The position numbers and the translations under genes were made by a program. Shown piece after piece: positions 24,738-32,970 of a DNA stretch of 58,811 nt. The stretch comes from an uncultured Pelagibacteraceae bacterium. Lineage in GTDB: Bacteria > Pseudomonadota > Alphaproteobacteria > Pelagibacterales > Pelagibacteraceae. The stretch lies in assembly GCA_902525355.1 (NCBI GenBank), contig CABZGO010000001.1, positions 66,641 to 125,451 on the forward strand. Direction: 5' to 3'. The notes below the pieces were generated by a model that was not told the DNA's origin, made no database searches, and saw only the letters and a list, made by a program, of their open reading frames with translations. Numbering within the stretch: position 1 is the stretch's first letter; each line of letters starts with the position of its first letter.

Positions 24738-27712
24738 TTACCTTTAAGATTTTCTAAAGTCCTGGTAATAAATCTCGGAGTTAAAGTTTTTATTGGATTA
24801 ACTGTACTTTTTAAATCATTAGGTGGTCCTTTAATTTTAAAACTGACACCAAATACACCTTCGCCAGTTTTACTACCTACTAAAATTTTACCAAGTAAAG
24901 GAATTTTGGCTATTGTGTTATTAATAGTTGTTGCAGGCACTAAGGTTCCTCTTAAACTTGTCATCCTGTCTTTCTCAATATAACCCTCCATCATTATTGA
25001 AATAGCTGGCCCTAATGCATAAATCTCATCAATCTCTATTAAATTGTTTTTTGTTTTATAATCCATCTCAAATTCATTAAATCTTATTCCCTCGCCTGTC
25101 AAAAAATCAGCAATTCCTTGTAAATCTGCAAGTGTAAGAATTTTTGCTAAAACTGGTACTTCTTTAACTTTGAAATTACTAATCTTGAGTTTTGACCTAG
25201 ATGTATTATCAATTTTGATTGAACTGAACTTTAATTCACCTTCATCAAAACCTTTTATAAATTTATAATTATTGATAAATGGTTTTGGTTCTTGAATAAA
25301 TATATTTGTGATTTTTTCATTCTTAGCTGTTGTTCTATAAAAATAAGAGAATTGATTTTCTTTGTCCAAAACTCCATTAGCTTTAGCTAGTATTAATTTA
25401 TTATTTTTTATATCAAATTCGCCAGTAAATTTTTTAAGATATTCATTTTTTTCTAAATATACCTTTTCTAAATTCAATATTACTGAAGTATTTAAATTAT
25501 CAAAGAAATTTGAAATCTTAGTTTCATTATTGCTCTTCAATAGTTTTTCAATTATTTTTTCTCCATCGATTTGGTTTCCAATAAATTGATAATTATTTGA
25601 ATTTTTTTTAATTTGAAAATTATTTTTAACTCCCTTGATATTAAAAAAATTTGCATCAATTTTATCCACACTCTGCAATTTAAAATCATCGGATATATAG
25701 AGATTATCTATTGAAATATAATTTTTGTTTTCTTTAAAACTGATTTTCTGTAAGTTAAATCCATTTATAGACTTATTTAATAAAATTTCTAATTTTGATG
25801 GAATATTTTTTTTCTTTAAATATTGAATTTCATCAATTTTTAAATCACTATCATCTAAATTTAATAATGTATAAAGTTCATAATTATTTTCACTACCTTT
25901 GTATTTAATAAAAAAATTATCCTCTTTATTTTGTATTAAATATTTTCCATTTAGTTGAAAATTAATTATATCATTTGAATATTCAAATAAAATTTGAGGA
26001 TTTTTGACAGTAATCTTATTGTCGAAACTTGTTAAATATTTTTTAATGAAATTTGATCTGTAATTAAGATTTAAATTATCAAAATTTAAATTTGATTTTA
26101 TAGCAAATTTTTTAATGTTAAATGTGTCATCAATCGATGCATTTATTGTAAAATTTGAATTTAGGTTTATTATTTGATCCTTTATTAAATTATGTTGTTC
26201 TTGAATATCTAAATATTTCTTAAACTCTTTAGTATTAAATGTATTATTATCTGATTGTACAAATATTTCTACATCAGAGGTTTTATCGTCTTTTTTATCT
26301 AATTTGAGATTTATAATATTATTTTCTGACTCATTATCAAAATTTTTATCTAAAAATGAGTAATTACTTTTTAAATCTACTTTAAATAATTGGTCTCCAA
26401 AAATTATTTTAGTTTTAATATTTTTTAAGTACAGAACGTCTTGGATTTCTTCATTAAGTTGTAATTTATCTATGTAAATTTCTGAGTCGAATAGGTAATT
26501 TTCTATTTTGTTATTATAAACTTCAAATTTAAAGTTATTATCTGACTCTAAATTAATTTTTTTATCAGATAGAAGTTTGGGATCTAAATCTATAAAGTTT
26601 AAAAAAATTTTAGGATCTAAAAGTGCTTTTCCATTTCCTATATTTCCTTTTATCATTATTTTTTGATTTTTTTTACTATTTAAAGATAATTTTAAATTAT
26701 TATTTTTAAATTCATTCTTTATTTTTAAATCGTCTAAAAAAGCAAAGTAGGTATCAAGCTCAGCAGTAAATTTTTCATTTTCAAATTTAGAATTAATTGT
26801 ACCCTCTTTTAAAAAAATAAGATTTTGATATTTATTATTAAAATGAATTTCGTCAAAATTTAAGACTGAGTCAATTTTGATATTTTTAATTTTTTTATTT
26901 TTATTTAATTTAAAGGAGAATGAATTTTTACTCTTAAACAAAATATCTTTATTAGACAAATAATCTTGTTTTATATTTGTAAATTTAAATATTAAGTTTG
27001 GGTTCACTAATGCTTTAGTATTTTCTATATCTCCTTCAATGTAATATTCACCAGATTTTTTCTCTTTTATATCTAATCTTTTTGATGAAAGCAGTATCTC
27101 ATCATAAGTAAAGTTTAAATTTGAAATATTAGTTATTTTATCCTGAGTCTGAAAATTAAAATTTAAGTCATTTAAACTTTCATATCCTGGTATATTTAAT
27201 TTTGCATTGCTCACTGAGCCTGAAATAAAATAAGAGAGAGACTCTTGTCTTTTACTATCTAATTTAGCATCTAGTTCAAAATTTAATAATCCTTCTTTGA
27301 TCTGACTATAAAATATGTATCTAGTTAGATTATAGTCTATTGTATTTAAGAATGATGTAACATCTTTTATTAAATTACTTGCAGATTTTATTTTTATATT
27401 TTTTATTGAACTTTCATTCTTTAAAAATTTTATTAAATTTAAATTTATATCTATATTTGAAATTTTTATTGTGTTGAATTCTGCAATTATATTTGCATTC
27501 TTAGTGTTAATATTAATTGCTCTCTCACTTAGATTTAACTTAATATAAACATTCTCAGTTTGAAGTGTAAGTTTTGAGTTAAAGTCTTTGACTTTATTAT
27601 TTATTAAATTATTAAATTTATCTGTTTTTATGCCATAAATACTTAAATATGAAATGCATATACCGAAAATTAATAAAATTGATATACCTGTAATTAATAT
27701 TTTCTTAGGCAT
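24734..27712 (-). CDS. Large AsmA-like / DUF3971-type envelope protein
   Basis: A 992-residue protein with one N-terminal membrane helix (ILITGISILLIFGICISYLS, residues 5-24) and a very long predicted periplasmic part made of repeating beta-strands. The C-terminal region, including GPAISIMMEGYIEKDRMTSL and IPLLGKILVGSKTGEGVFGV, resembles the AsmA C-terminal domain of YhdP/TamB-like proteins, thought to form bridges that carry phospholipids between membranes. The start overlaps the prfB stop by eight bases. It is lysine- and asparagine-rich, as is usual here. Membership of the AsmA/YhdP group is likely; the exact role is inferred. Confidence 0.78.
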   Translation of the reverse strand: MPKKILITGISILLIFGICISYLSIYGIKTDKFNNLINNKVKDFNSKLTLQTENVYIKLNLSERAININTKNANIIAEFNTIKISNIDINLNLIKFLKNESSIKNIKIKSASNLIKDVTSFLNTIDYNLTRYIFYSQIKEGLLNFELDAKLDSKRQESLSYFISGSVSNAKLNIPGYESLNDLNFNFQTQDKITNISNLNFTYDEILLSSKRLDIKEKKSGEYYIEGDIENTKALVNPNLIFKFTNIKQDYLSNKDILFKSKNSFSFKLNKNKKIKNIKIDSVLNFDEIHFNNKYQNLIFLKEGTINSKFENEKFTAELDTYFAFLDDLKIKNEFKNNNLKLSLNSKKNQKIMIKGNIGNGKALLDPKIFLNFIDLDPKLLSDKKINLESDNNFKFEVYNNKIENYLFDSEIYIDKLQLNEEIQDVLYLKNIKTKIIFGDQLFKVDLKSNYSFLDKNFDNESENNIINLKLDKKDDKTSDVEIFVQSDNNTFNTKEFKKYLDIQEQHNLIKDQIINLNSNFTINASIDDTFNIKKFAIKSNLNFDNLNLNYRSNFIKKYLTSFDNKITVKNPQILFEYSNDIINFQLNGKYLIQNKEDNFFIKYKGSENNYELYTLLNLDDSDLKIDEIQYLKKKNIPSKLEILLNKSINGFNLQKISFKENKNYISIDNLYISDDFKLQSVDKIDANFFNIKGVKNNFQIKKNSNNYQFIGNQIDGEKIIEKLLKSNNETKISNFFDNLNTSVILNLEKVYLEKNEYLKKFTGEFDIKNNKLILAKANGVLDKENQFSYFYRTTAKNEKITNIFIQEPKPFINNYKFIKGFDEGELKFSSIKIDNTSRSKLKISNFKVKEVPVLAKILTLADLQGIADFLTGEGIRFNEFEMDYKTKNNLIEIDEIYALGPAISIMMEGYIEKDRMTSLRGTLVPATTINNTIAKIPLLGKILVGSKTGEGVFGVSFKIKGPPNDLKSTVNPIKTLTPRFITRTLENLKGN

Positions 27713-28803
27713 TTAATTTATATAAAGAGTTTTCTAAAAATTCATCAATTTCTCCATCTAATACCTTATCTGGATTTGAATTTTCGTAGTTCGTTCTGTT
27801 GTCTTTCACCATTCTGTAAGGATGTAATACATATGATCTTATTTGATGTCCCCAACCAATTTCTGATTTTGAGCTTTCAATATTATCACTCTCTTTTTTT
27901 CTCTTTTGTATTTCGTGTTCATAAAGTCTTGCTTTAAGCATGTTCATGCAAGTTTCTTTATTTTTATGTTGTGATCTTTCGTTTTGACATTGGACAACAA
28001 TTTTACTTGGAATATGAGTAATTCTTACTGCACTATCAGTTGTATTAACGTGTTGTCCGCCTGCTCCACTTGATCTGTAAGTATCGATTCTTAAATCTTT
28101 GTCTAGTACCTCAATATCTATATTCTCACTTATTACTGGGTAAACCCAAACGCTCGCAAAGCTAGTATGTCTTCTTGCACCTGAGTCAAATGGAGAGATT
28201 CTTACCAAACGGTGTATTCCAGACTCTGATTTTAAAAAACCATAAATATATTCTCCAGAAATTTTAATAACTGAAGACTTTATACCTGCCTCATCACCTC
28301 TATGCTCACTAATCAATTCAACATTATAACCTCGATCAGATGCCCATTTCATATACATTCTTCTCAACATTTGAGCCCAATCTTGACTCTCAGTACCTCC
28401 TGCGCCTGCATGAAATTCTAAATAACTATCTAAAGTATCATTTTCATTTGAAAGAAAACATTTTATTTCTAATTTTTTTAAATCTTTTTTTAAATTTAAA
28501 AATTTATCTAAAGTTTCTTGAATTAACTGTTTGTCATTTTCTTCACTTGCAAGCTTAAAGATATCATATAACTCATCAATCTCTCTTTCTGATTGTTTAT
28601 GAGAGACTAATAAGTCGTCATATCCTTTTTTTTCTTTTAATATTTTTTCAGCTTTTTTTCTGTCATCCCAGAATTTTGGACTCTCTATGAGAATGTTAAG
28701 TTTATTTCTTTTTAATACAATATCTTGTGTTTCAAAGAAACTCCTTAATTCTTTGATTTATTTTAATTACCTCAGACTTAAATTTTTCTATCTCTTGTTC
28801 CAT
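27705..28803 (-). CDS. prfB: Peptide chain release factor 2 (programmed +1 frameshift)
   Basis: RF2 releases proteins at UGA and UAA. The ATG at 28803 opens 23 codons that end in an in-frame TGA (28732-28734). Shifting +1 after CTT (skipping base 28734) gives a continuous frame to 27705, for a total of 365 residues, normal for RF2. Downstream are the SPF stop-codon recognition tripeptide (ISPFDSGARRH) and the GGQ motif in SSGAGGQHVNT. It is not a pseudogene: the shift site has the standard form. The start codon overlaps the stop of the penicillin-binding protein gene (TAATG). An annotation beginning at 28370 would miss the first 144 residues. Confidence 0.95.
28732..28746 (-). promoter_or_regulatory. 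RF2 programmed +1 frameshift site
   Basis: On the minus strand the sequence is AAGGAG-TTT-CTT-TGA-A. The AAGGAG acts as an internal Shine-Dalgarno three bases before the slippery CTT, and TGA is the stop RF2 itself reads, so low RF2 favours slipping to CTT-T-GAA. The layout matches E. coli (AGGGGG-TAT-CTT-TGA). This autoregulation is well established for the family. Confidence 0.94.
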
Positions 28804-31224: not shown

Positions 31225-32970
31225 ATGTCAAAAAATTTATATATTGATGCATCGCATCCAAATGAAACTAGAGTTGTTCTTAAAAGAGATGATCATATTG
31301 AAGATTACGAATATGAAAGTGTAAACAACACATTAATAAAAAACAACATTTATCTCGGAAAAGTAAGTAGAATTGAGCCTTCACTTCAAGCAGCATTTGT
31401 TGATTTTGGAAGAGACAGACATGGATTTCTATCATTCAATGATATTCAGTCTGATTACTATCAGCTACCTCATAGCGATTTAGAAAAGATAAAACAAGAG
31501 GAGGAAAAAGTAAGAGAAGAGCTTTCAAAGGAAAGTGAAAACACAGAAAATCAAATTTTGGAAGGTAATGAAGAAATAAAGATTAATGATCCAGTTGAGA
31601 AACCGGAGGATGAAAACAAGGATAAAATTAACGAAAAAAAATTTCCATCAAAAAGATATAAAATTCAAGAAGTAATAAAACCTAATCAAGTCATATTAGT
31701 TCAAGTTTTAAAAGATGAAAGAGGATTTAAAGGAGCAGCGCTTAGCACATTTATAAGTATCGCGGGAAAATATATTGTTTTAATGCCAAACACAGCAAAA
31801 GGTGGTGGAATTTCTAGAAAAATATTTAATCCTGGGGATAGAAAAAAAATTCGGAAAATTCTAAATGAAATTGAAATTCCTAAAGAAATGGGAATTATTG
31901 TTAGAACAGCCGGATCCAATAAAACAAAAAATGAAATAGAAGGTGACCTAAATAATTTAATATTAATTTGGAATTCTATAAAGGATAATGCATTAAATTC
32001 AATTGCACCGTCTTTAATTCATCAAGAAAGTGACATAATCAAAAGAAGTATAAGGGATATGTATGATGATGAAACACAAAATATAATAGTTGAAGGAAAT
32101 GAGGGATATCAAAAAACTAAAAACTATATGAAGCTCATGATGCCAAAGCAATTAAAAAAAGTTAAAAAATTTAGAGAAAAACTTCCTCTTTTCTTTAAAG
32201 AAAATATTGAAAGAAAGCTATTTGAAATATTTAAGACAGAAGTAAAACTTAATTCTGGTGGTTACCTAGTAATTAATCCTACAGAAGCATTAGTTTCTAT
32301 TGATATAAATTCTGGTAAATCTATAAAGCAAAAAAATGTGGAAAGCACAGCTTTAGATACCAACCTTGAAGCTGCTGAAGAAATAGCTAGACAAATTAAG
32401 ATAAGAGATTTGTCTGGTTTAATAATCATTGACTTTATTGATATGCTTAGTTTCAACAATCGTAAGCAAGTTGAAAGAAGATTAAAAGAGAGATGTAGAA
32501 ACGACAGAGCAAGGATTCAAATAGGAAGGATAAGTAATTTTGGACTTCTCGAAATGTCAAGACAACGACTTAGAGAAAGTAATGTTAAATGGTCAATAAA
32601 ATTAACAAATGAGACTCAAGCTTTAAAAGTGATCAAATTAATTGAAATTAAAACACTTGAAAATACTGCTAAAGTCATAGAGGTAAAAATTAATGAAAAA
32701 ATTTTTAATTATATTGAGAATAATTTTAGTGAGGACCTAAATTATTTTAAAAAAAAGAATAAGATTAAAATTAATCTTAATATTGACCAAAATTTAAGCT
32801 TACAGGAATATAGCATGGAGTTTAAATCTAAATCAGGCAAAGTATTAGAAACAATTCAAAAAATTGAGAGTTTAGATAAAATTGTTGAAGATAAAAAAGA
32901 ACATAGTCCTAAAGAGAATAAAAAAAAAAAAAAATTTAAAAAAAAAAAAATTTTTAAAAAAAAAAGCTAA
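31225..32970 (+). CDS. Ribonuclease E/G family endoribonuclease lacking the Zn-link cysteines
   Basis: A 581-residue RNase E/G-family protein that cuts single-stranded RNA in mRNA decay and rRNA or tRNA processing. The S1 domain (GKVSRIEPSLQAAFVDFG) is interrupted by an acidic insertion at about residues 84-145. The magnesium-binding aspartates are in LVSIDINSG (Asp360) and IDFIDM (403-406), and FGLLEMSRQRLR follows. Directly after this the CPxC motif (Zn-link) of both RNase E and RNase G is absent; the sequence reads RESNVKWSIKLTNETQ. There is no long C-terminal scaffold domain, and the protein ends in a lysine tail encoded by A-tracts. Its stop overlaps the thiG stop (CTAA). Confidence 0.88.
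   Translation: MSKNLYIDASHPNETRVVLKRDDHIEDYEYESVNNTLIKNNIYLGKVSRIEPSLQAAFVDFGRDRHGFLSFNDIQSDYYQLPHSDLEKIKQEEEKVREELSKESENTENQILEGNEEIKINDPVEKPEDENKDKINEKKFPSKRYKIQEVIKPNQVILVQVLKDERGFKGAALSTFISIAGKYIVLMPNTAKGGGISRKIFNPGDRKKIRKILNEIEIPKEMGIIVRTAGSNKTKNEIEGDLNNLILIWNSIKDNALNSIAPSLIHQESDIIKRSIRDMYDDETQNIIVEGNEGYQKTKNYMKLMMPKQLKKVKKFREKLPLFFKENIERKLFEIFKTEVKLNSGGYLVINPTEALVSIDINSGKSIKQKNVESTALDTNLEAAEEIARQIKIRDLSGLIIIDFIDMLSFNNRKQVERRLKERCRNDRARIQIGRISNFGLLEMSRQRLRESNVKWSIKLTNETQALKVIKLIEIKTLENTAKVIEVKINEKIFNYIENNFSEDLNYFKKKNKIKINLNIDQNLSLQEYSMEFKSKSGKVLETIQKIESLDKIVEDKKEHSPKENKKKKKFKKKKIFKKKS
32920..32965 (+). repeat. Poly-A tracts encoding the lysine tail of the RNase E/G protein
   Basis: Three nearly adjacent A runs (15, 13 and 10 bases; 32920-32934, 32938-32950 and 32956-32965), separated by TTT and TTTTT, encode a K-rich end (KKKKKFKKKKIFKKKS). 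A change in run length would alter only the last few residues. The runs are also long enough to cause replication or transcription slippage, or sequencing error. Confidence 0.85.

Follow-up and report, generated by a model that had tools for sequence, protein, structure and literature searches.

The RNase E of the SAR11 bacteria (Pelagibacterales) belongs to the Rne/Rng family but lacks a feature of canonical RNase E, the zinc link. The window, i.e. the whole stretch of 58,811 nucleotides analyzed here, carries at 31225-32970 (+) an intact open reading frame of 581 codons, which encodes a 581-residue endoribonuclease of the Rne/Rng family from a SAR11 genome; the canonical Zn-link motif CPxCxGxG after the MSRQR segment is absent from this protein. 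The loss is clade-wide and not peculiar to this genome.

In RNase E of Escherichia coli, a dimer of dimers, the contact from dimer to dimer is made by the small domains, and two CPxCxGxG motifs share a single zinc. Self-contacts of the DNase I domains dominate the E. coli dimer, and both tetramer formation and full activity reportedly require the Zn-link (PMC2631609). According to a 2025 paper, the CxxC motif is conserved throughout the alphaproteobacterial RNase E homologs (PMC12510024); SAR11 is an exception to the conservation stated there. No published description of the Zn-link loss in SAR11 was found in the open-licence PMC literature.

Gene, conserved residues and the shortened linker

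The 581-residue protein scores 457.9 bits against the model of the Rne/Rng ribonuclease family (TIGR00757), above the curated cut-off of 325.95, and 313.9 bits against PF10150; its top match in the PDB is E. coli RNase E (2bx2, E 6.4e-101). It stays under the cut-offs of both equivalog models, that of RNase E (NCBIfam NF008074: 387 bits, cut-off 908, with a model that describes the full-length protein in 1068 positions) and that of RNase G (265.8 bits, cut-off 594). One gene with PF10150 was found in this genome (1.18 Mb, 80.8% complete). Among named sequences, the nearest relatives come from single-cell genomes of uncultured Pelagibacteraceae (L234, 88% over 555 residues; L263, a partial sequence, 89% over 292 residues), and therefore we assign the window to SAR11. 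The features of the gene are listed below.

31225..32970, +, RNase E without Zn-link, Rne/Rng family (open reading frame, TIGR00757, PF10150, PDB match)
31330..31470, +, S1 RNA-binding domain, first half, residues 36-82 (PF00575 at 38-87; model matches 1sn8/1smx)
31471..31659, +, charged S1 insert, residues 83-145, of variable length in SAR11 (alignments, model)
31903..31908, +, 5'-phosphate sensor R227-T228 (R and T in 88/88 order sequences)
32233..32568, +, DNase I catalytic/dimer domain, residues 337-448 (model against 6x2d_B)
32302..32304, +, catalytic D360, E. coli D303 (D in 88/88 order and 148/148 class sequences)
32431..32433, +, catalytic D403, E. coli D346 (D in 88/88 order and 148/148 class sequences)
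32494..32496, +, C424 in KERCRND, the sole cysteine of the protein (Cys in 33/88 order sequences)
32569..32610, +, shortened linker of 14 residues, 449-462, with the Zn-link knuckle missing (linker lengths, alignment)
32590..32592, +, W456, SAR11-specific invariant Trp (W in 87/87 readable order sequences)
32602..32604, +, L460, SAR11-specific invariant Leu (L in 87/87 readable order sequences)
32608..32862, +, small (tetramerisation) domain, residues 462-546 (PF20833, domain-only model)
32872..32967, +, Lys-rich disordered tail, with no long degradosome scaffold and no C-terminal GWW (pLDDT <50, residues 550-581)

The catalytic residues D360, N362 and D403 as well as the residues R227 and T228 of the 5' sensor are invariant in all 88 sequences from the order, which bears out the statement of an earlier, sequence-only reading of this DNA that the catalytic aspartates remain. 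We take R227-T228 to be the equivalent, in numbering and in sensor role, of R169/T170 in E. coli.

The segment MSRQRLRESNVKWSIKLT leads directly into the next helix and contains no cysteine; in the alignment, the window protein has nothing opposite the E. coli segment containing CPRCSGTG. Compared with the 25 residues that are usual in the class, the linker has 14, and the difference of 11 residues equals the length of the knuckle CPxCxGxGxxR. The alignment gap sits there, placed after L460 (32604/32605). Two residues of the shortened linker are specific to SAR11: the position of W456 is mostly occupied by T/A/S/G in the class, and that of L460 mostly by P/T/V/K. No conserved Cys or His was found in the linker columns of the alignment, from which two exceptional class sequences (L143 and L181, see below) were left out. 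The earlier reading, which had noticed that no cysteines follow MSRQR and that the only one nearby lies in KERCRND, was correct on both counts, and this cysteine, C424, proves to be the only one in the entire protein. Its position is not conserved: apart from the 33 order sequences with Cys, it is mostly occupied by I, V or L.

Distribution of the deletion in the order, the class and the phylum

In the order-level search, the Rne/Rng family was present in 225 out of 247 genomes. RNase E/G matches per genome usually number one, and 5 of the 225 rows show two (by eye). The order sample is composed of 88 genes, one each from 88 genomes, the window included; five of these sequences are cut by contig ends (L008, L009, L184, L193, L324), and since L324 stops at the contig edge before the linker, 87 are readable at the site. 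In all 87, the linker (RQR to residue 463) consists of 14 residues. CxxC occurs nowhere in the chain in any of the 88 sequences, five of which are the contig-end-cut ones. A cysteine pair supplied from another part of the protein, which the sequence-only reading had left as a possibility, is thereby ruled out; 25 of the 88 proteins, all of them uncut, are even free of cysteine. At the level of DNA, a pattern for the Trp form, which shows this form only and not the absence of CxxC, matches 221 of the 247 order genomes. Four gene-bearing genomes do not match the pattern: in three, the Trp form is present but SRQR is preceded by V, L or I, and the fourth is that of L324. Among the named Pelagibacteraceae loci, which come partly from the same genomes as the order sample, 29 out of 30 are readable at the site, all without CxxC.

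The search of the class covered 192 genomes, of which 187 matched, three belong to the order and two were unmatched; 148 loci were taken. CxxC is present at the site in 146 of them. The class linker comprises 25 residues in 146 of the 148 loci, the two exceptions having 26 and 21, and the Trp signature of SAR11 is found in none of the 148 sequences. Two class loci are without CxxC, namely L181, an RNase G-like copy with the linker of 21 residues, and L143, with CIYS. The latter, from another alphaproteobacterium (G430), is a lone CIYS variant with a Zn-link loop of normal length, and either is a genuinely half-lost site or stems from an error in the sequence. The 80 named loci include 50 from outside SAR11, and 49 of these carry CxxC; in the remaining one (L307), one base of the first Cys codon is undetermined. 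In the phylum-wide search, the Zn motif is present in 70 out of 70 loci, RNase E-sized and RNase G-sized proteins taken together (the 30 best-scoring matches plus 40 picked to spread over families). Among the sampled sequences, the deletion separates the Pelagibacterales from the remainder of the class.

The catalytic part, with the linker excluded, was used to calculate a tree with 69 rows; it is a quick tree with many long branches. A single branch (SH-aLRT 93) separates the 17 SAR11 rows from all others; adjacent to them is L148, whose lineage has a genome of 1.4 Mb and retains CHTC. The row of L148 is itself long, so that the branch order below SAR11 is unsure. The tree topology is consistent with a single loss of the Zn-link on the SAR11 stem.

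Domain models, tail and gene neighborhood

The AlphaFold2 model of the whole chain (pLDDT 79.2, pTM 0.76) matches E. coli RNase E (2bx2) with a Z of 28.6 over 380 residues and an rmsd of 4.8; the linker is poorly defined (pLDDT 53). The S1 region of the model matches the E. coli S1 structure 1sn8 with a Z of 12.3, and the DNase I domain matches RNase E of Vibrio cholerae (6x2d_B) with a Z of 20.6 and an rmsd of 0.9 over 109 aa. The S1 insert is modeled as a helix from residue 83 to 112, with low confidence beyond; a helical S1 insert has been described for RNase E of Caulobacter (PMC4245959). The VIA alignments of the whole chain with E. coli RNase E end at model residues 455-465 and the whole-chain Foldseek superpositions are poor, with rmsd values near 15-18, presumably due to a different placement of the domains and the linker. 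A domain-only model was therefore needed. Modeled alone, residues 440-556 reach a pLDDT of 82.7 and match the small domain of E. coli (412-497) with Z from 10.1 (2bx2) to 12.1 (2vmk); the match to 2vmk_A (Z 12.1) extends over 80 residues with an rmsd of 1.5, the identity to E. coli being 15-16%. The next chain, an unrelated one, scores Z 8.1 against the same model, and Foldseek finds RNase E chains weakly (E 0.004-0.08). PF20833 matches residues 462-532 with 27.0 bits at a cut-off of 26.8.

When pairs are binned by DNase I identity, those of SAR11 show a slightly lower conservation of the small domain than those of the class in seven out of eight bins (0.259 vs 0.303; 0.313 vs 0.358 in the 0.70-0.75 bin; 0.381 vs 0.421), whereas the bin 0.90-0.95, with only three class pairs, runs the opposite way. 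The comparison is based on 83 order and 146 class sequences, without L143 and L181, and its pairs are not independent. The lower conservation would fit some relaxation. Strong decay of the small domain is ruled out, as the divergence is only slightly faster and the fold is kept in the model.

Short forms of RNase E, of 720 aa or less, have been noted before in Pelagibacterales and Rickettsiales (PMC5436854). A C-terminal GWW is absent from all 63 sequences of the SAR11 family to which the window belongs (f1; one sequence is 3'-cut); in the sister family f2, 23 out of 25 sequences have it, and the two without it are 3'-cut. We assume that GWW at the end of a long C-terminal scaffold is the PNPase-binding motif of Alphaproteobacteria; judged from its presence in f2 and not in f1, the loss of degradosome contacts may have proceeded in steps. 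This genome contains PNPase. A match to the RNase J family (for example G000:C13:9148-10761) was obtained at E 0.001 in 57 out of 58 order genomes, 35 of the 58 being over the curated cut-off, this genome included; the control for RNase J also matches in E. coli, so that weak rows are no proof of RNase J. In view of these matches, the cell probably has further RNA-decay enzymes besides RNase E.

Upstream of rne, in divergent orientation, lie genes for a penicillin-binding protein that combines transglycosylase and transpeptidase domains and for a release factor, read as prfB, a neighborhood that we take to be typical of the class. The thiG gene follows downstream in convergent orientation, and the 3' ends of rne and thiG overlap by 4 bp (32967-32970). 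The prfB gene (27705-28803, -) begins with a short frame that runs to a CTTTGA stop, with a Shine-Dalgarno-like AAGGAG before it, and continues in a different frame. It looks as if prfB keeps the programmed +1 frameshift of RF2, the arrangement being, as we presume, the classic one of E. coli.

Proposed assembly of the enzyme without a shared zinc

Like RNase E of E. coli, the SAR11 enzyme possesses the S1, 5' sensor, RNase H-like, DNase I and small domains and the catalytic aspartates; unlike it, it is devoid of CPxCxGxG, has a linker that is 11 residues shorter and contains W456/L460, carries an S1 insert, and has no long degradosome scaffold. With the enzymes of Caulobacter and other Alphaproteobacteria it shares 38-46% identity (in the cases aligned) and the S1 insert (PMC4245959), but CxxC, theirs in 146/148 loci, is found in 0/87 readable sequences of the order. 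It resembles RNase G from E. coli and elsewhere in being a short Rne/Rng protein with no long scaffold, and RNase G of E. coli is described as mainly dimeric (PMC2948425); in contrast to SAR11, the phylum sample, in which many proteins are RNase-G-sized, carries the Zn motif in 70/70 cases. Cyanobacterial RNase E, which is described as retaining the Zn-link without the small domain (PMC10989914), is the mirror image of the SAR11 form, which keeps the small domain without the Zn-link; each does without one quaternary element.

Because the metal-sharing contact between subunits is gone, something in the assembly must differ, and to this extent the different quaternary structure proposed in the sequence-only reading stands. 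The loss of the tetramer that it also considered is not implied, since the small domain persists and is folded in the models. As two other interfaces, those of the DNase I domain and the small domain, are still present as folds, we judge metal-free assembly with W456/L460 as a new contact to be the likeliest solution, at about an even chance, with a dimer-only enzyme as its main rival. On this reading, the protein would be a zinc-independent RNase E in which the DNase I domains and the small domains pair the subunits and W456/L460 form a candidate hydrophobic clamp. The tree and the outgroups suggest that an ancestor of SAR11 underwent one in-frame loss of 33 bp, the product of which would have been an active, zinc-independent RNase E. 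Its protomers would still pair via the self-complementary faces of the DNase I domains, and the small domain would still join or brace the subunits. W456 and L460 would be placed where two linkers approach each other, and a metal-free hydrophobic contact between them is a candidate replacement for the shared zinc; W456 may alternatively pack within one protomer or bind RNA. Target recognition by the 5' sensor and S1 as well as metal-dependent hydrolysis would proceed as in E. coli RNase E. The full scenario, in which one ancestral excision of the knuckle was offset by a new Trp/Leu clamp between subunits and the quaternary structure was kept without the metal link, is put forward tentatively, at somewhat less than an even chance.

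The tetramer might instead have been lost, leaving a dimer mediated by the DNase I domains and a small domain retained for binding of RNA or partners. This is a possible but clearly less probable outcome. Disruption of the Zn-link blocks tetramer formation in E. coli (PMC2631609), RNase G of E. coli is mainly a dimer (PMC2948425), and the small domain of SAR11 is slightly less conserved than that of the class, all of which would suit such an enzyme. What is more difficult to reconcile with it is that the modeled small domain has retained the fold seen in E. coli and that the new linker leading into this domain is conserved; pure decay of an interface is not expected to fix both W456 and L460 in 87 out of 87 sequences. 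The loss could also be a by-product of zinc and cysteine economy, with an assembly function that is marginal or slower: SAR11 needs reduced sulfur, zinc is low in the open ocean, and 25 of the 88 order sequences do without any cysteine. We regard this as unlikely. The CxxCxGxG motif also characterizes the zinc domain of DnaJ, for which 38 out of 38 order genomes give a match, and all four motifs are kept in each of the three DnaJ sequences whose cysteines were checked, which rules out a general loss of CxxCxGxG zinc domains in SAR11. Moreover, the exact excision and the new invariant residues look constrained, and economy bears on the cause of the loss, not on the mechanism of assembly.

Still less probable, and indeed very unlikely, is that zinc or another metal continues to be shared via non-cysteine ligands elsewhere in the chain; carboxylates are plentiful, but the linker columns are without conserved Cys or His, and C424 is not conserved. 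The chance of an assembly or sequencing error, the second possibility left by the earlier reading, or of a decayed copy is negligible. The frame is open, the longest homopolymer within 32481-32660 measures four bases, the other two frames across the site have stops, and the catalytic residues are invariant. The deletion is the same in 87/87 readable species genomes and therefore not an error, none of the 29 readable named Pelagibacteraceae loci has CxxC, and we found no support for a misassembled or decayed gene; a frameshift is ruled out by the open frame, the stops in the other frames and the clade-wide pattern alike.

An order that lives without the Zn-link is a natural experiment on the purpose of this link. 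The 11 residues together with W456/L460 define a testable swap that would separate assembly from catalysis. If metal-free assembly is true, the most abundant bacteria of the ocean would run their central RNA-decay enzyme without a metal link.
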